From the NCBI GenBank assembly GCA_031285605.1, contig JAITVW010000270.1, positions 1 through 14,815 of the forward strand: a stretch of 14,815 nt of DNA, given 5' to 3'. Both the position numbers and the translations under genes were made by a program. This DNA is from Fusobacteriales bacterium. GTDB lineage: Bacteria > Fusobacteriota > Fusobacteriia > Fusobacteriales > Leptotrichiaceae. Position 1 is the first letter of the stretch. Every line of letters begins with the position of its first letter. The notes beneath the pieces are model-generated. The model was not told where the DNA came from. It saw only the letters and a list, made by a program, of their open reading frames with translations, and searched no databases. Shown one piece after another: positions 4,129-14,736 of this stretch.

Positions 4129-4710
4129 ATGCAGGAATATGATGATAATAATGCTAATGCACCTGAAGTAATTACAGTCTACAGAAGTTTTGACTTTGAA
4201 GCTTACGATATAAAAGAAGCTGATAAAAATTATCTGTATGAAATAGAAAGAACAATAACTGACAATCAGGAAGCAGTTACAAAAGAATTGTGCGAAATAG
4301 CCAGAAAATTAAGCGAGGCCAGAAAGATACTCGGTGGATATGCGGATGGATGTTTTAATAAATGGTTTGAAAATCTTGGTTTTGAAAAGAATTATGTAAG
4401 CAAAATGATTGATAAATATGATCTGGTAGAGGAAACACATGTGGAAAAGGCTATAGACCTTCCGGTAAGACTGGTTTCTGATATGAAAAAAGAAGAGCTT
4501 GACACTGAGCAGAAAACGGAAATTGTAAATAGTCCGGAGCCTAAGCGGAAATTTAAAGAGATAAAAGAGGAAATATACGGACCTGAACCTGAAAAGAATG
4601 AGGTAGAAGTAATTCTGGAAAAAATACATAAGGCAGAGCTGGCTATAACCAAACAGGAGGATAAAATAGAAAGATTAAAAGAAAAATTAGAAAAACTGCG
4701 TGATATGTAA
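4129..4710 (+). CDS. DUF3102-like protein with C-terminal coiled coil
   Basis: A 193-residue, highly charged, soluble protein. Residues about 36-100 resemble DUF3102: a helix with EIARKLSEARKILG, then a G-x-F-x-x-WFENLGFEKNYVSKMI block. This matches the family pattern of a lysine- and alanine-rich helix, then a W-x-x-W/F-type segment and a helix-turn-helix-like end. A Pro- and Glu-rich linker follows (about 130-155), and about 160-193 forms heptad-like repeats of Leu, Ile and Lys/Glu (KIHKAELAITKQ...RLKEKLEKL), a probable coiled coil. DUF3102 proteins are common on phages and plasmids of Firmicutes and Fusobacteria, and some are thought to bind DNA; the function here is unknown. It stands alone between its own promoter and terminator, convergent with the helicase gene. 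Confidence 0.65.
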   Translation: MQEYDDNNANAPEVITVYRSFDFEAYDIKEADKNYLYEIERTITDNQEAVTKELCEIARKLSEARKILGGYADGCFNKWFENLGFEKNYVSKMIDKYDLVEETHVEKAIDLPVRLVSDMKKEELDTEQKTEIVNSPEPKRKFKEIKEEIYGPEPEKNEVEVILEKIHKAELAITKQEDKIERLKEKLEKLRDM

Positions 4711-8309: not shown

Positions 8310-8572
8310 TATTTTTTCTAGAACATAATCAAAATTATTTTCTAAAAACAATTTTTATTTTTGTGAAGTCGACTTTTATCCTTTTCATTAGAATATTATT
8401 TTTGAATTTACAATTATCATAATAAGTGAAAATAGTTTGAAAAATAATTGAATATATATTAATTTTAAAATTAAAAATAAAGTTTAAATAAAGCAAGGAC
8501 TAAGGCTTTAATCATATAATAAACTCAAGAAAAAAGTAAATACCTGAAAAAATTTATCTTTCTATATCAGAG

Positions 8573-8604
8573 ACTGTCAGTTACTCGACTGATAGTATTT
8601 TTTT
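8573..8604 (+). terminator. Orphan rho-independent terminator
   Basis: ACTGTCAGT (8573-8581) / ACTGATAGT (8588-8596): 9 pairs including one G-T wobble, loop TACTCG, then ATTTTTTTAT. The T-run is only on the + strand, so it ends a + transcript, yet no + strand gene lies upstream. The nearest + strand gene end is at 4710. Confidence 0.85.
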
Positions 8605-8627
8605 ATAAATAAGATATAAATTGTCTG

Positions 8628-8646
8628 TACAAATTACTTGTATAAT
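8628..8646 (+). promoter_or_regulatory. Candidate promoter and operator of the UPF0173 gene
   Basis: A perfect inverted repeat TACAA-ATTAC-TTGTA (8628-8642) overlaps a TATAAT at 8641-8646. A TTGTCT at 8621-8626 is only 14 bases upstream, a poor -35 spacing. The layout suggests a promoter blocked or aided by a dimeric regulator, but the repeat is short and may be chance. Confidence 0.35.
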
Positions 8647-8727
8647 GATAAAATTATATAAATGCTTAATATGATAATATCTTGCTGAAAGTAAACAGAC
8701 AGCTATACTAATACAGGAGGTAACAAA

Positions 8728-9414
8728 ATGAAAATAAAATTTTTGGGGCAGGCATGTTTCCTTATAGAAACTAACGGTAAAAATATAATAATAGATCCAT
8801 ATCTCACGGAAAATCCAAAAAATCCCACTCCTCTTAATGATATTCCAAAGCTTGATTTGATACTGATAACACACGCACATTCAGATCATATAGGGAATGC
8901 TGTGGAACTGGCACTGAGAGACGATGCTGCTATAGTAACGGGAACCGAGCTGGCACGCTGGCTTGCACTTAAGGGAGCGAAAGTCATTCCTGCAGGGATA
9001 GGCGGAAAAAAGGATTTTGAATTTATTAGTGTAAAATTAACTCAGGCAATGCACAGCTCCGGCATAAATGACAGCGGACAGATACTTTACGGCGGTTTGG
9101 CAGCAGGAATATTGATTTATGCAGAGGGAAAGACAATATATCATGCAGGGGATACAGCATTATTTCTTGATATGAAGCTTATAGGAGAAATGAATGATAT
9201 CGATTATGCGATACTTCCCATAGGGGACAATTTTACTATGGGAATTGATGATTCGGTAACAGCCGCAGAATGGCTCAAGGCAAAAAAGTATATACCAATG
9301 CATTATAATACAATGCCTTTTATAGAACAGGATCCTTATGAATGGCTGGGGAAAATAGAGGCAAAAGGACTTTCGGGAGAAATAATGAACTATGGTGATG
9401 TTCTCAAGATATAA
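8728..9414 (+). CDS. UPF0173 metal-dependent hydrolase (metallo-beta-lactamase fold)
   Basis: A 228-residue protein, the usual length of the UPF0173 (YtkL-like) family. The metallo-beta-lactamase metal site is complete: HAHSDH (H49, H51, D53, H54), H109 in the MHSSG segment, D142 in YHAGDTALF, and H192 in PMHYNT. The opening MKIKFLGQACFLIE and the IDPYL and GGLAAGILI segments are characteristic of the family. It should be a cytoplasmic enzyme binding two divalent metals; the physiological substrate is not established. AGGAGG at 8715-8720 sits 7 bases before the ATG. It is a single-gene unit ending in a 12-base-pair terminator, divergent from the helicase gene. Confidence 0.93.
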   Translation: MKIKFLGQACFLIETNGKNIIIDPYLTENPKNPTPLNDIPKLDLILITHAHSDHIGNAVELALRDDAAIVTGTELARWLALKGAKVIPAGIGGKKDFEFISVKLTQAMHSSGINDSGQILYGGLAAGILIYAEGKTIYHAGDTALFLDMKLIGEMNDIDYAILPIGDNFTMGIDDSVTAAEWLKAKKYIPMHYNTMPFIEQDPYEWLGKIEAKGLSGEIMNYGDVLKI

Positions 9415-9432
9415 AAAATATTTGAATAAAAC

Positions 9433-9472
9433 AAATTCTTCCGGAAAAAGCCGGAAGAATTTATTTTTTATT
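9433..9472. terminator. Terminator of the UPF0173 gene, probably bidirectional
   Basis: Perfect 12-base stem AAATTCTTCCGG (9433-9444) / CCGGAAGAATTT (9451-9462), loop AAAAAG, followed by ATTTTTTATTT on the + strand. Read on the minus strand the hairpin is followed by GTTTTATTC, so it may also stop the convergent Rep_3-like gene, which has no better terminator of its own. Confidence 0.85.
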
Positions 9473-9578
9473 TGAGCCTGTGAGAAAAAGTCTGTAAAAT
9501 ATATTTGAAAAGATTATTTTCCTGTATATTTTGCAGGTATGAAAGATTTGTATTTATTTTGTTATTTTTTTTTTAGAT

Positions 9579-10646
9579 TTAAGTTTTTTTGTATATTTTT
9601 ATATCATAAAACTTGTCTGAAAGCTCCAGTATTTCTATCCGAATGGTTTTGGTTTCAAAAAAGATTTTTTTATCAATATTAAGCATATAGAATTTTTTGT
9701 TAAATCTGCTGTTTATAATCTGATCATCAAAAATTTCGCTTTCTTTTATTTTTTCCATTTCTTGAAACAGTATTTTCTGAAGCAGTATAATATTATCTGC
9801 TTTTTCTTTTATATGAAGTAAAAGTGAGCTGTTTTCAAAAAATTGGTCTTTTATTATATTTTCAAGGTGATTTTCTATTGTTTTGTTTTTATCAAGGCTT
9901 TTAATTCCTTTCAGGATAATTTCCTTGGAATAAACGCTGAGCAGTTCGGTAATTTTGGTAATTGCAGTGTTAAAATTGATGTACTGTGAAGTTTTTTCAA
10001 GAAGTTCTATGGCAAATTTAGAATTGGCATAAAAATTTTTATTTGTAATAATAAAGCTTAAATTTACTATTTTATTATTAACACTGCTTCCGGATTTTAT
10101 TTTATCATAAAAAATGATATAAGGAGTATTCTCTTCTATGTCTGATACTATAGTTTTCAGTATAAATTTTTCAAAATCATAAAATCGTGCATAGGAATCT
10201 ATTTCGATAGAATCTTTTAGATCATCAACAGAGATATCTATTTTTTTGCTGTCACTAATATCCTGACAGTATTTTAGGAAAAAACGCAGTGTAAATTTTT
10301 CCTGTAATATTAATACAGACTGAAAGTCAGGAATGATACTCATGTGTGAAATATTCTTTAATAAATCGCTGAACTGCAGACTTACTATGTTACTGGTAGC
10401 TTCGTATCCTGACAGAAACATGTATGAATATATTTCTTCCCTAAAATGTATTTTTACATTTTTCTTTTGAAATTTTTCTAAAATATTGTAAAGTTCACTT
10501 TTATTTACACCAATCTGAGACAAAATTTCTGAAATAGTATATTTTTCAATTTTTTTATGTAAAAAATTTTTTATTAAAACTTTTTCATATTTAGAAAGGA
10601 ATTTGTCAAAACTTATTTTATAATTATTATAATAAAAAAATTCCAT
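9579..10646 (-). CDS. Rep_3 (RepB)-like two-winged-helix protein, possible regulator
   Basis: A 355-residue soluble basic protein. Residues 14-205 follow the Rep_3 plasmid initiator plan. The first winged helix (about 17-100) has an EKxLIKNFL helix, a helix-turn-helix ISEILSQIGVNKSELYNILEKF (38-59) and a beta-rich wing ending VSLQFSDLL. The second (about 108-205) has EKFTLRFFLKYC, IDISVDDLKDSI, then YARFYDFEKFILKTIVSDIE, NTPYIIFYDKIKSG and a final beta strand. In plasmid initiators this last block usually carries GRKV, here replaced by SGSSVNNK. The last 150 residues are an extra region I do not recognise. AGAGGTGA lies 4 bases before the ATG. There are no partition genes, iterons or plasmid backbone nearby. 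It is divergent from the PTS operon, so a regulatory role is plausible. A relic plasmid initiator is the alternative. Confidence 0.7.
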   Translation of the reverse strand: MEFFYYNNYKISFDKFLSKYEKVLIKNFLHKKIEKYTISEILSQIGVNKSELYNILEKFQKKNVKIHFREEIYSYMFLSGYEATSNIVSLQFSDLLKNISHMSIIPDFQSVLILQEKFTLRFFLKYCQDISDSKKIDISVDDLKDSIEIDSYARFYDFEKFILKTIVSDIEENTPYIIFYDKIKSGSSVNNKIVNLSFIITNKNFYANSKFAIELLEKTSQYINFNTAITKITELLSVYSKEIILKGIKSLDKNKTIENHLENIIKDQFFENSSLLLHIKEKADNIILLQKILFQEMEKIKESEIFDDQIINSRFNKKFYMLNIDKKIFFETKTIRIEILELSDKFYDIKIYKKT

Positions 10647-10732
10647 TAAATCACCTCTTTTTTTATCCGAAAAAAGTATATTTTTTTACAAAATACACGA
10701 AAACAACTGATTGTAATTTTCAATTATTATAT

Positions 10733-10761
10733 ATTATACCATTATTATTGCTTAGTTACAA
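10733..10761 (-). promoter_or_regulatory. Promoter of the Rep_3-like gene
   Basis: On the minus strand, TTGTAA (10756-10761), a 17-base spacer, and a perfect TATAAT (10733-10738) with a TGG extension. The leader is about 80 bases. Confidence 0.75.
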
Positions 10762-10795
10762 ACGATTAAGACAAAAAAAATATTTTAAACGAAAA

Positions 10796-10835
10796 CGGTA
10801 TAAAAAATAACCGAAATTTGACTTAGCATTATAAT
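10796..10835 (+). promoter_or_regulatory. PTS operon promoter with upstream inverted repeat
   Basis: A perfect TATAAT stands at 10830-10835, but the -35 position (about 10807-10812, ATAACC) is poor. A TTGACT at 10818-10823 is only 6 bases from that TATAAT and would instead pair with TGGTAGAAC (10837-10845) at 16 bases. The inverted repeat CGGTAT (10796-10801) / ATAACCG (10807-10813) is centred about 37 bases before the likely start of transcription, where an activator often sits. The GAAAACGGTATA part also resembles an imperfect catabolite response element. Confidence 0.4.
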
Positions 10836-10903
10836 GTGGTAGAACATGAGTAGAATTAGAAACTATTAACCATTCAAAAAAATTTCAGGGAGGTAAGGAA
10901 ATT

Positions 10904-12208
10904 ATGAGTAAAATTATGACAATATTGGAAGAAAGGGTAGCACCGGCTGTAAACAAAATAGGCGGACAAAGACATTTGAGAGCAGTAAGAAACGGAATAA
11001 TATCAATGCTGCCTCTGACTATAGTAGGATCATTTTTTGTAATATTTCTAAATATACCAATACCGGGATATGATGAGCTGATAGCTCCTATTAAAGCTTC
11101 GCTGGATATACCGTTCAGATATACCGTGGGTATAATGTCAATATATGTATCTTTTGGTATAGCACACCAGCTGGCAAAGAGCTATAATCTGGATGAGCTG
11201 ACTTCAGGGTTTCTTGCTGTAGCAGGATTTCTTATTTCATCAATAGTGCCTGTACAGGTTTCAAAGGGTGTAGAAGGTGTAATTGATGCCGGAAGATGGA
11301 TGCCGATAGCAAAATTAAGCGCATCAAGTCTTTTTGGAGCAATACTTGCGGCAATAATATCAGTGGAGATATATAGATTCTTTAAAGAAAAAGATATAGT
11401 AATAAAGATGCCGGACGGTGTACCGCCTGCAGTATCAAACTCTTTTGCAGCATTATTTCCTGCAATTGCCATAATATTACTTTTCTGGATAATAAGATAT
11501 CTATTGGGATTCGATATAAGTGAGGCTCTGTCAACTCTGCTTGCACCGTTAAAAGGTATTCTTGCCGGAAACTCATTGCTTGGCGGATTAATAACAGTTT
11601 TCCTTATACTGTTTTTCTGGGTTTTGGGAATTCACGGGCCGGCAATACTGGGACCGGTTATAAGACCAATCTGGGATACTACAATAGCGGAAAATATGGA
11701 TGCATTTACAGCAGGTGCAAGTGCACATGCACTGCCTAATATCTTTACAGAACAATTTTTGCAATGGTTCTTATGGATAGGCGGGTCAGGTATGACACTT
11801 CCTCTGGTATTCCTGTTTTTAATATCAAAATCAAGATTTCTGAAGGATCTGGGAAAATTATCGGTTCTTCCCGGAATCTTTAATATAAATGAGCCGGTAA
11901 TTTTCGGTGCTCCGATAGTTATGAACCCGATTCTGGCTATACCATTTGTAATAGTACCGGTAATATGTACAATAATCTCATATATTTTAACAAGAGTGGG
12001 TATGATACCAATGATGATGGCAAGGCTGCCGTTTACAGTTCCTGCACCTATAGGAGCGCTGATAAGTACTAACTGGAGTGTGACGGCCTGTATTCTGGTA
12101 TTTGTAAACTTCTTTATAGGACTTGTTATTTATTATCCTTTCTTTAAGATGTATGAAAAACAGCTGCTTGAACAGGAAGCTGCTGCTAAGTCAACAGAAG
12201 AAGCATAA
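10904..12208 (+). CDS. PTS EIIC, cellobiose/lactose family
   Basis: A 434-residue membrane permease of the lactose/cellobiose EIIC family, near the usual length. Landmarks: RHLRAVRNGIISMLPLTIVGS (about 23-43), VPPAVSNSFAALFP (173-186), GIHGPAILGPVI (242-253, with H244 of the conserved GIHG loop), and NEPVIFGAPIVMNPILAIPF (329-348, with E330, the sugar-binding Glu of the family). About ten hydrophobic segments are visible. It carries a beta-linked disaccharide or related sugar across the membrane for phosphorylation by an EIIB. No EIIA or EIIB is in the window, so it must use partners encoded downstream or elsewhere. AGGGAGG at 10887-10893 precedes the ATG. It is first in the operon, opposite the Rep_3-like gene. 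The substrate cannot be read from sequence. Confidence 0.92.
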   Translation: MSKIMTILEERVAPAVNKIGGQRHLRAVRNGIISMLPLTIVGSFFVIFLNIPIPGYDELIAPIKASLDIPFRYTVGIMSIYVSFGIAHQLAKSYNLDELTSGFLAVAGFLISSIVPVQVSKGVEGVIDAGRWMPIAKLSASSLFGAILAAIISVEIYRFFKEKDIVIKMPDGVPPAVSNSFAALFPAIAIILLFWIIRYLLGFDISEALSTLLAPLKGILAGNSLLGGLITVFLILFFWVLGIHGPAILGPVIRPIWDTTIAENMDAFTAGASAHALPNIFTEQFLQWFLWIGGSGMTLPLVFLFLISKSRFLKDLGKLSVLPGIFNINEPVIFGAPIVMNPILAIPFVIVPVICTIISYILTRVGMIPMMMARLPFTVPAPIGALISTNWSVTACILVFVNFFIGLVIYYPFFKMYEKQLLEQEAAAKSTEEA

Positions 12209-12273: not shown

Positions 12274-12484
12274 ATGAAAAGAAAACTTGGAATATCAATA
12301 TATCCTGAAAAATCAACAGTGGAAAAAGATAAGGAATATATAGAAAAAGCACATAAATACGAGTTCGGCAGACAGCAGAAAAAACAGAGCAGGGAAGGTT
12401 ATAGAGGAGGAATTGTTTTTACTGTCATTTATTAGTTCATGGATAAATTTTAAATTCAAAGAAAAAAATAATATAGAAAAGGTG
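12274..12484 (+). pseudogene. DUF871/MupG-type phospho-glycosidase remnant, middle deleted
   Basis: From the ATG at 12274 (after AGGAA) the frame reads MKRKLGISIYPEKSTVEKDK then EYIEKAHKYEF, the typical start of the DUF871 TIM-barrel family (S. aureus MupG, a 6-phospho-N-acetylmuramidase, is a member). After about residue 31 similarity stops, and this frame ends at TAG 12433-12435. From about 12371, in the next frame, the sequence reads DSRKNRAGKVIEEELFLL then SFISSWINFKF, which looks like the C-terminal end of the same family. Only about 65 codons of a normal 350 or so remain, so roughly 280-290 codons were lost in one internal deletion with a frame change near 12361-12373. The C-terminal frame has no stop and runs straight into the kinase gene. 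The product cannot be active. The family match is from memory of its conserved ends. Confidence 0.75.
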
Positions 12485-12490
12485 ATGTTA

Positions 12491-13504
12491 GTGAAAGCAG
12501 CAGCATTTGGGGAAGTGATGATGAGATGCAGTGTTCCCGGAAAAAAGAAATTATTTCAGTCAAATAATCTGGAGTATATGTTTTCAGGAACAGGACTAAA
12601 TGTAATGGGACAGCTTGAAAGATTCGGACTGGAAACAGAACTTATTACAAAGCTTCCGGACAATCCTCTGGGGGATGCAGCAGTCTCACAGATACAGAGT
12701 CTTGGCATAAATACCGGAAAGATAGCCAGAGGCGGGGAGTTTATAGGAATATATTTTCTTGAGGAAGGTTTTGGAAAAAGACCTTCTGTGGTTACGTATA
12801 CAGATAGAAGAGGAAGTTCCTTTTGTAAATCGAAGTTAAAGGATTATAATATGGATGATATTCTGGAGAATGTACAGATGATTCATTTCTGCGGGATAAG
12901 TCTTGCAATGAATGATGATGTAAGAAACATTATGTTCTCTATGGCTGAAAGAGCTAAGGCAAAAGGGATACTGGTTGTTTTTGACTGCAATTACAGGGAA
13001 AAATTATGGAAGAAAAAATATGAAGATGCTATACCAAATTATAAAAAAATAATAGAATATTCTGATATTGTTTTTGCAAGTGAAAAAGATATAAGTAATA
13101 TATTTGGTATAAAAAGCGAAAAAGAGAATGTAGAAATAGAGGAAATATTAAGGGATCTTATTCCGGAATTTGCTGTGAAGTATGATTTGAAGCTTGTATC
13201 AGGAACAATCAGGGATAATAAAAGCCTGAATTCCCAAAAATTAAAGGGATTCGCTTATAAAAATAAAAAAATTTACTTTTCTGAATACCAAGAACTTGAA
13301 ATTTATGATAGAATTGGAGGAGGTGATGCCTACACTTCAGGTATACTTTATAAATATCTGAAAAAGGCAAAGCTGGAAGAAATGGTAGATTTTGCAGTAG
13401 CAAGTGCTGTTTTGGGACACACTACATATGGAGATACGCCTGTATCGGCTTTGGAAGAAGTGGAAGAATTGCTTCACGGTGATTTTAGCGAGCTGAAAAG
13501 GTAA
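12491..13504 (+). CDS. PfkB-family sugar kinase, KDG-kinase-like
   Basis: A 337-residue ribokinase/PfkB-fold enzyme. It opens with AAAFGEVMMRCSVPG, which is close to 2-keto-3-deoxygluconate kinases; FSGTGLNVMGQLERFG (about 32-47) is the sugar-binding GG-x-N-type motif; VVFDCNYREKLW is the RPxLW-like segment; and GGGDAYTSG (276-284) holds the anion hole and the catalytic base D279. It would phosphorylate a sugar or 2-keto-3-deoxy acid with ATP. I start it at GTG 12491, 5 bases after AAAGGTGA. The open frame extends upstream to a TTG at 12413, but those 26 codons match the tail of the deleted DUF871 gene and are not kinase sequence. Its place with an amidohydrolase and a DgaE-like gene supports a keto-deoxy-acid substrate, though this is inference. 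Confidence 0.85.
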   Translation: MKAAAFGEVMMRCSVPGKKKLFQSNNLEYMFSGTGLNVMGQLERFGLETELITKLPDNPLGDAAVSQIQSLGINTGKIARGGEFIGIYFLEEGFGKRPSVVTYTDRRGSSFCKSKLKDYNMDDILENVQMIHFCGISLAMNDDVRNIMFSMAERAKAKGILVVFDCNYREKLWKKKYEDAIPNYKKIIEYSDIVFASEKDISNIFGIKSEKENVEIEEILRDLIPEFAVKYDLKLVSGTIRDNKSLNSQKLKGFAYKNKKIYFSEYQELEIYDRIGGGDAYTSGILYKYLKKAKLEEMVDFAVASAVLGHTTYGDTPVSALEEVEELLHGDFSELKR

Positions 13505-13623: not shown

Positions 13624-14736
13624 GTGCTTATTAAGAATGGGGTGTTGATTGACAAAAACAACGGTTTTCATCTGAGCAGAAAGGATATAAGGGTCGAAGA
13701 CGGACTCATAAAGGAGGTAGCTGATGATCTGGTTCCGTATGAAAATGAGGAAATAACGGATATCAGCGGCCTTGTAGCAGCTCCCGGCTTTACAGATATA
13801 CATACACATGTGTATCACGGGAAAACAGCCATAGGAATAGATCCGGACAGGGTCGGTATAGAACAGGGAGTGACTGCAGTAGTAGATGCGGGAACTGCCG
13901 GAGCCGATACTTTCGAGGACTTTTATGAGCGTATTATAAAAAAGGCAAAGACCAGAGTATACGCTTTTTTGAATGTTGCATCACCGGGACTGTTGAGTCT
14001 TAGTGAGCTGACTGATTTATCAAACATAGAATTTGAAAAAATAAAGGAAACTGTTGAAAAGTACAAGGATGTCATAGTGGGAATAAAAGCAAGAGCTTCT
14101 GGTTCTGTCGTGGGAGAAAACGGGGCAGAGCCTATAAGAACAGCAAAAGAAATTGCTAAGAAACTGGGACTTCCTGTTATGGTACATATAGGAAATGCAC
14201 CTCCGAAAGTAGAAGAGGTTTTGAATCTCATGGAAAAAGGAGATATAATAACACATTGTTTTCATAATAAAGTGAATAATCTGATAAGGGAGATGGGAAT
14301 TCTTCCTGAAGCAAAGGCTGCCAAGGAAAGAGGAGTATTTTTTGATGTGGGACACGGAAATGCAAGTTTTTCATTTGATACAGGTGTTAAAGGTATAGCA
14401 GACGGTTTTATTCCGGATTTTTTGAGTACGGATATTTATGATAAAAATATAGACAAACCTGTAAAAAGTCAGATAACTACACTGAATAAAATGCTGTATC
14501 TGGGACTTACTCTGGAAGACTGCATAAATAAGCTTACCAGAGAACCGGCCAAAGCACTTTCATTGGGAGAAACAGGAGAAATAAAAACAGGATACAGAGC
14601 TGATTTTACAATATTTGAATTGGTGGATAATTATACGGAATTAACTGATTCAGTGGACAAAACAGTGAAGCAGAAGCCGTATGTAAAAGGGAAATACAGC
14701 ATAGTAGGCGGAAAAGTCTACGAATGTGTGCAATAA
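13624..14736 (+). CDS. COG3964 amidohydrolase/deacetylase family metallohydrolase
   Basis: A 370-residue TIM-barrel enzyme of the amidohydrolase superfamily, related to dihydroorotase-like proteins of COG3964 (E. faecalis EF0837, Agrobacterium Atu3266). The binuclear metal site can be read off: H60 and H62 in PGFTDIHTHVYHG, K155 in VGIKARAS (the carbamylated lysine), H188 in MVHIGNAPP, H211 in ITHCFH, and D270 in LSTDIYDK. A small N- and C-terminal beta domain (LIKNGVLID, GYRADFTIFEL, VGGKVYE) frames the barrel. Some family members hydrolyse chiral acetyl esters in vitro, but the natural substrate is not established. It starts at GTG 13624, 6 bases after AGGAGGG. Its gene is followed after 48 bases by a DgaE-like gene, a pairing known from other bacteria and suggestive of an N-acylated amino-sugar-acid substrate (inference). 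Confidence 0.92.
   Translation: MLIKNGVLIDKNNGFHLSRKDIRVEDGLIKEVADDLVPYENEEITDISGLVAAPGFTDIHTHVYHGKTAIGIDPDRVGIEQGVTAVVDAGTAGADTFEDFYERIIKKAKTRVYAFLNVASPGLLSLSELTDLSNIEFEKIKETVEKYKDVIVGIKARASGSVVGENGAEPIRTAKEIAKKLGLPVMVHIGNAPPKVEEVLNLMEKGDIITHCFHNKVNNLIREMGILPEAKAAKERGVFFDVGHGNASFSFDTGVKGIADGFIPDFLSTDIYDKNIDKPVKSQITTLNKMLYLGLTLEDCINKLTREPAKALSLGETGEIKTGYRADFTIFELVDNYTELTDSVDKTVKQKPYVKGKYSIVGGKVYECVQ

Follow-up and report, generated by a model that had tools for sequence, protein, structure and literature searches.

Rep_3-type proteins encoded opposite sugar operons in Fusobacteriota are probable regulators acting through ACGAAAA sites

A protein of 355 residues with the fold of Rep_3-type replication initiators, encoded divergently from a PTS operon in a fusobacterium, very probably regulates this adjacent sugar operon through ACGAAAA sites. 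The best explanation overall, which we regard as likely, is that of a Rep_3-derived regulator controlling both the divergent PTS operon and its own gene via iteron-like half-sites. The gene lies in a stretch of 14,815 nucleotides (hereafter the window). This stretch is contig C77 of a genome from the same genus as Sebaldella, which is 87% complete, with 322 contigs and 1.94 Mb. The fold, the family, the gene arrangement and the shared motif with its orientation and spacing were obtained directly by computation. Judged from its sequences, the family is related to Rep_3-type replication initiators and has members in Fusobacteriota. The reading as a transcription regulator, proposed in an initial annotation of this DNA, was supported by the Rep_3 similarity, the co-occurrence with PTS genes, the negative plasmid and phage searches and the family-specific, oriented motif.

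As the initial annotation had described, the regulator gene is placed divergently to the PTS operon, with 257 bases between its ORF and the EIIC gene (Table 1). Segment 9492-12361 of the window is 94.5% identical to a locus on contig C1 of the S. termitidis genome G026, which comprises 4,418,842 bp, the size given for the Sebaldella termitidis chromosome in an excerpt of PMC3035275. Since the matching locus sits on a chromosome-sized contig, the window gene would be chromosomal as well. Orthologues with 64, 87 and 96% identity were present, one each, in the three other genomes searched from the genus of Sebaldella, and the regulator gene stands opposite the same EIIC operon in all four. In G026 and G025, the operon additionally contains a MupG-like gene, followed by SelA-like (DgaE type) and KDGP aldolase genes. 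At 12361-12366 of the window, relative to G026 (locus L029), about 0.9 kb is absent from the interior of the MupG-like gene that separates EIIC from the sugar kinase, with short ends remaining; this gap is either a real deletion or an assembly fault. Orthologues of the kinase begin at a methionine or valine near 12487, which is probably the true start. At 9411-9492, the window lacks about 3.7 kb present in both G026 and G025, which hold there an IclR-like regulator and two genes that, named from sequence, resemble kduD and kduI. Further away, a gene at 4129-4710 codes for a 193-residue protein matching solely phage families of unknown function (phrog_1733, 2e-15); it adjoins an SNF2 helicase gene and is conserved in G026 and G025.

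Table 1 Features of the regulator locus in the window, with the basis of each assignment.
Feature	Position	Strand	Basis or remark
Rep_3-fold regulator gene, 355 aa	9579..10646	-	ORF call
C-terminal module, residues 203-355, fold unassigned	9582..10040	-	
Winged helix 2, about residues 108-202, with YxRFYDFEK segment	10041..10325	-	Rep3_C
Winged helix 1, about residues 6-100	10347..10631	-	Model and RepE alignment; no Rep3_N match
Site 1, ACGAAAA	10697..10703	+	Between the regulator's predicted promoter and start codon; identical in 4/4 orthologous loci
Predicted regulator promoter, TTGTAA-17-TATAAT	10733..10761	-	Promoter scan
Site 2, ACGAAAA	10789..10795	+	Starts 29 bp before the proposed PTS -35; identical in 4/4 orthologous loci
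Proposed PTS promoter, TTGACT-16-TAGAAC (10818-10823, 10840-10845)	10818..10845	+	Not listed by promoter scan
PTS EIIC, lactose/cellobiose family	10904..12208	+	PF02378, TIGR00410
pfkB-type sugar kinase	12413..13504	+	PF00294
EF_0837-type amidohydrolase	13624..14736	+	PRK09237, TIGR03583

The initial annotation had assigned both winged-helix halves of Rep_3/RepB initiators to the protein. The Pfam model Rep3_C, which describes winged helix 2 (WH2), matched residues 139-198 with 31.8 bits against a cut-off of 21.1, and PF01051 (Rep3_N, WH1) matched neither the window protein nor any other protein of its genome. Both winged helices are nevertheless supported, because the family profile gave an alignment with RepE that spans late WH1 and WH2 (E 1e-9 to 4e-9) and the predicted model of the protein, compared by VIA-align, aligned to RepE over residues ~6-205. 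In winged helix 2, Y152, R154 and D157 were invariant across 22 diverse family members. The proposed replacement of a GRKV-type element by SGSSVNNK proved partly right, as the position of KKGRQTT in RepE reads K-x-G-x3-NNK or similar in most of the family. The roughly 150 C-terminal residues described as unrecognised remained so, with no Pfam model above cut-off after residue ~205. Comparison of this module with sensory-domain folds (PAS/LOV, roadblock and others) gave no clear fold match, and an alignment of 27 members contained no invariant or nearly invariant column.

With the family profile, 17 of 33 Leptotrichiaceae genomes proved to contain relatives (55 rows), as did 56 of 98 Fusobacteriota genomes; S. 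termitidis G026 has ten members, all on contig C1. In a large protein set, profile A6 retrieved 30 proteins, of which those with a named organism were all from Sebaldella, and a Fusobacteriaceae member used as query retrieved 49, the single organism-named one being from Fusobacteriaceae. Wherever they are named, the source databases label family members 'replication initiation protein'. In a tree of the WH1-WH2 region from which the long-branch, mobile-type row L170 and three orphan rows were omitted, 38 family rows (clusters) and six plasmid-type Reps fell on opposite sides with a support of 99/97. The split was not clean in a first tree that included these rows, in which L170 joined one family row and the orphan rows were mixed in. 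An E. faecium plasmid row with too few filled columns was dropped from both trees.

A survey of gene arrangement covered 144 distinct family rows, taken from the regions around all listed matches except for five weak matches and for one of the three copies in G095, and counting the two pieces of a broken G007 copy separately. A called gene on the opposite strand within 700 bp upstream was found for 127 rows, whereas seven rows reach a contig end and ten are without such a gene, some of them owing to a spurious ORF called in the gap or a neighbour cut at the contig end. The first divergent genes matched PTS_IIB (36), PTS_EIIC (27), PTS_IIA (24), EIIA_2 (13), PTS_EIIB (8), EIIA-man (7) and glucitol EII (3), with counts that overlap because of multidomain proteins. 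Using 13 PTS reference proteins as queries, the first divergent gene was PTS in 90 of 127 cases and the divergent unit (up to six genes) held a PTS gene in 108 of 127, compared to seven of the 122 genes that come first on the other side; by Pfam, these other-side genes were PTS_IIB in 7/122 and MupG in 9/122. The co-occurrence with sugar operons, whose absence would have spoken against the initial reading, thus recurs across the phylum. Nine of the 19 units without PTS are of an SFCGS/PRD type, with or without an amidohydrolase, and one is DgaE-like at a contig end; one begins with GH1, one with a sugar-type ABC binding protein and two with oligopeptide-type binding proteins, and the remaining five belong to low-scoring rows (at most 78 bits), one beside a ParA-like gene. 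Since S. termitidis has 44 PTS_EIIC matches, just a minority of its PTS operons have a family neighbour. Some operons recur opposite family members (L035 11319-13765 and L086 from 6507) and encode PRD, glycine-rich SFCGS and further small conserved proteins, in some cases with a KDGP-aldolase-like gene; they are possibly an uncharacterised uptake system. A DUF7916 protein (L058 6467-7378 and relatives) heads six of the divergent units, in which PTS EIIB and EIIC come next.

For the analysis of shared motifs, 121 intergenic regions, forming 42 non-redundant clusters, were oriented such that the plus strand reads towards the PTS operon. Apart from ribosome-binding and -35 sequences, the strongest words contained ACGAAA. 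The heptamer ACGAAAA occurred on the plus strand in 29 of the 42 non-redundant regions (shuffle mean 3.5) and at least twice in 12 of them (shuffle mean 0.1), with 42 plus-strand occurrences against a single one on the minus strand. Over all 121 regions, redundancy included, there were 130 plus and 27 minus occurrences, and 96 regions had the motif on either strand. As controls to the 29 of 42 regions, the motif was present in 3/74 divergent regions without a family gene and in 27/540 of all other intergenic regions at the same loci. ACGAAA was located 26-29 bp before TTGAC in 13 of the 24 non-redundant regions with both elements (null mean 0.66, maximum 4 in 5000). When the proteins were grouped at 45% identity, 36 of the 43 resulting clusters had a usable region; the site was found in at least half of the members in 31/36, two or more sites in 16 and the 26-29 spacing in 16; in five of the 36, most members lack the exact plus-strand site. 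In the L083 and L034 types, the spacing from site to -35 is 15 bp. The distances between repeats were phased at 10.5 bp (R 0.72, offset near zero; p 5e-5 against uniform and 0/20,000 against jittered spacings) in a test with one spacing per cluster for 21 clusters, the commonest being hand-picked and a tie of 74 and 257 being settled for 74. Many family regions have just one exact site. A scan of five whole genomes for the exact paired-site pattern gave ten pairs, four at family loci and six elsewhere, with none in three of the genomes; the reversed pattern was commoner, at 10 to 23 per strand, and such a scan is too strict and too noisy for regulon mapping.

The window region itself holds two copies of the motif (Table 1), 92 bp apart, corresponding to 8.8 turns and thus off phase. 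Both cores are retained in the orthologous locus of 64% identity, which the motif count scored with one site because the called ORF there starts at an upstream codon. The claim that the 257 bases contain two promoters held for the regulator's, which the promoter scan listed; the PTS promoter is proposed by us, and all four orthologous loci agree in its -35 (ATTTGAC). Likewise, the reported lack of an obvious iteron array was confirmed as far as tandem repeats are concerned, since Tandem Repeats Finder gave no array in the intergenic region and just three weak rows of about two copies elsewhere in 8500-11200, but two direct ACGAAAA copies lie within it. An inverted-repeat operator was considered and rejected, as the inverted repeats of the window region do not make up the shared feature and have arms separated by at least 50 bases.

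Based on these observations, we infer binding, PTS activation, autorepression and sensing by the family protein as follows. The two winged helices would recognise the asymmetric half-site (A/G)ACGAAAA in a fixed orientation, in the manner of Rep monomers on iterons, which would suit a half-site that is asymmetric, oriented and repeated head to tail. From a class I activator position, an activator touches RNA polymerase. A similar position is taken by the copy that precedes the PTS -35 by 26-29 bp, which could mediate PTS activation; its centre near -60 and its fixed orientation and distance to the -35 argue for an activator role without proving it. Activation rather than repression of the PTS is somewhat favoured, and the direction of control is the least certain part of the proposal. 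The second direct-repeat copy near the regulator start may serve autorepression, since one copy lies between the predicted promoter of the regulator and its start codon. In the many members with two sites on one helix face, the helical phasing suggests that a dimer may bridge both and form a loop around the regulator promoter, similar to the pairing of iterons by Rep proteins; we give looping between sites slightly less than an even chance. Two-site control by looping has a precedent in AraC. The C-terminal 150 or so residues may act in signal sensing or oligomerisation.

Rep_3 initiators, i.e. RepE of F, Pi of R6K and the RepB family, share with the window family the two winged helices, the Y-x-R-x2-D-F segment of WH2 and asymmetric, directly repeated DNA sites. 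For RepE, both dimers and monomers are described, and plasmid Rep proteins, which occur mainly as dimers in solution, contact iterons in monomeric form (both in excerpts of PMC4980987). The window family differs from these initiators in being chromosomal with many copies per genome beside PTS operons, in having two separated sites instead of tandem iterons and in its extra C-terminal module. The difference is illustrated by the plasmid-type Rep L168, whose gene neighbours a ParA-like gene and is preceded by four 25-nt repeats in tandem at steps of 21-23 bp, with two more copies inside it, and which matches at least 5000 plasmid records, compared to none, and no tandem repeats, for the window gene. 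The tandem iterons of this fusobacterial plasmid Rep (L168 1791-1880) read TGTGAGAAAAAGTATCC, and their part GAGAAAAA resembles the chromosomal motif GACGAAAA. RctB, the initiator of Vibrio chromosome 2, starts chromosome replication, whereas nothing at the window locus points to an origin. Local regulators of PTS operons are of the LacI, GntR, DeoR and PRD types. They resemble the window family in that one regulator gene stands beside each sugar operon, often divergently, but the fold is different and the site of the window family is an asymmetric direct repeat, not a dyad.

The same family and sites could also belong to a PTS repressor that forms a loop over the direct repeats and keeps both promoters closed until a signal from a sugar or the PTS arrives. 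Such a protein would be consistent with the pairs of directly repeated, helically phased sites seen in many members and with the binding of RepE dimers to their own operator (title of 2z9o), but a looping repressor needs neither the fixed distance nor the fixed orientation of the PTS-proximal site upstream of the -35, and many regions have just one exact site; we therefore consider this reading rather unlikely. A further possibility, that ACGAAAA is the site of a different factor with global control over sugar genes and that the Rep-like protein has another role, is very improbable. PTS genes, expected targets of a global factor too, do lie opposite most family loci, but upstream of the 38 PTS_EIIC loci of S. 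termitidis without a family neighbour the motif occurred in just two of 69 regions, none on the plus strand.

The Rep fold and the database name would also fit an integrated plasmid or island whose replication initiator is still functional and which adjoins PTS genes by chance. Against this stand the ten copies on one 4.4-Mb chromosome, the same PTS operon beside the gene in all four Sebaldella genomes and the lack of tandem iterons as seen upstream of L168. Moreover, tblastn with the window protein (E 1e-3) gave no match among 72,556 plasmid and 50,697 phage records, so that homologues confined to plasmids, which would have spoken against the regulator reading, were not found for it; a fructose-type family member had four plasmid matches, which were weak and covered at most 40% of its length. 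On the grounds of synteny, copy number, these negative searches and the absent tandem iterons, we reject a plasmid or integrated element, and an active initiator is extremely improbable. A defence-system reading was dropped, as no PADLOC family matched at E 0.01. The Rep_3-derived regulator of the divergent PTS operon thus remains our preferred reading; that ten paralogues with a common core share one cell in S. termitidis, with possible cross-talk, counts against it.

A literature search, with most subscription papers outside its reach, did not find a published description of Rep_3-like sugar regulators. A fold with autoregulatory DNA binding was known, and what looks new is its apparent job as a regulator across a phylum; the family is probably an undescribed class of gene regulator in fusobacteria. 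Tentatively, and with the odds a little against it, we suggest that transcription factors arose phylum-wide from replication initiators, whose iteron-style recognition of asymmetric, directly repeated sites and Rep-style pairing of distant sites became a loop control for many kinds of sugar-uptake operons. If our reading is true, fusobacterial 'replication initiation proteins' would be local regulators of sugar uptake, ten in S. termitidis alone, which would correct an automatic annotation able to mislead plasmid typing. It would also provide a regulator family together with its operator for a phylum in which we found few described regulators of carbon use, and it would clearly exemplify the conversion of a replication protein into a gene switch, iteron-like sites now serving as its operators.
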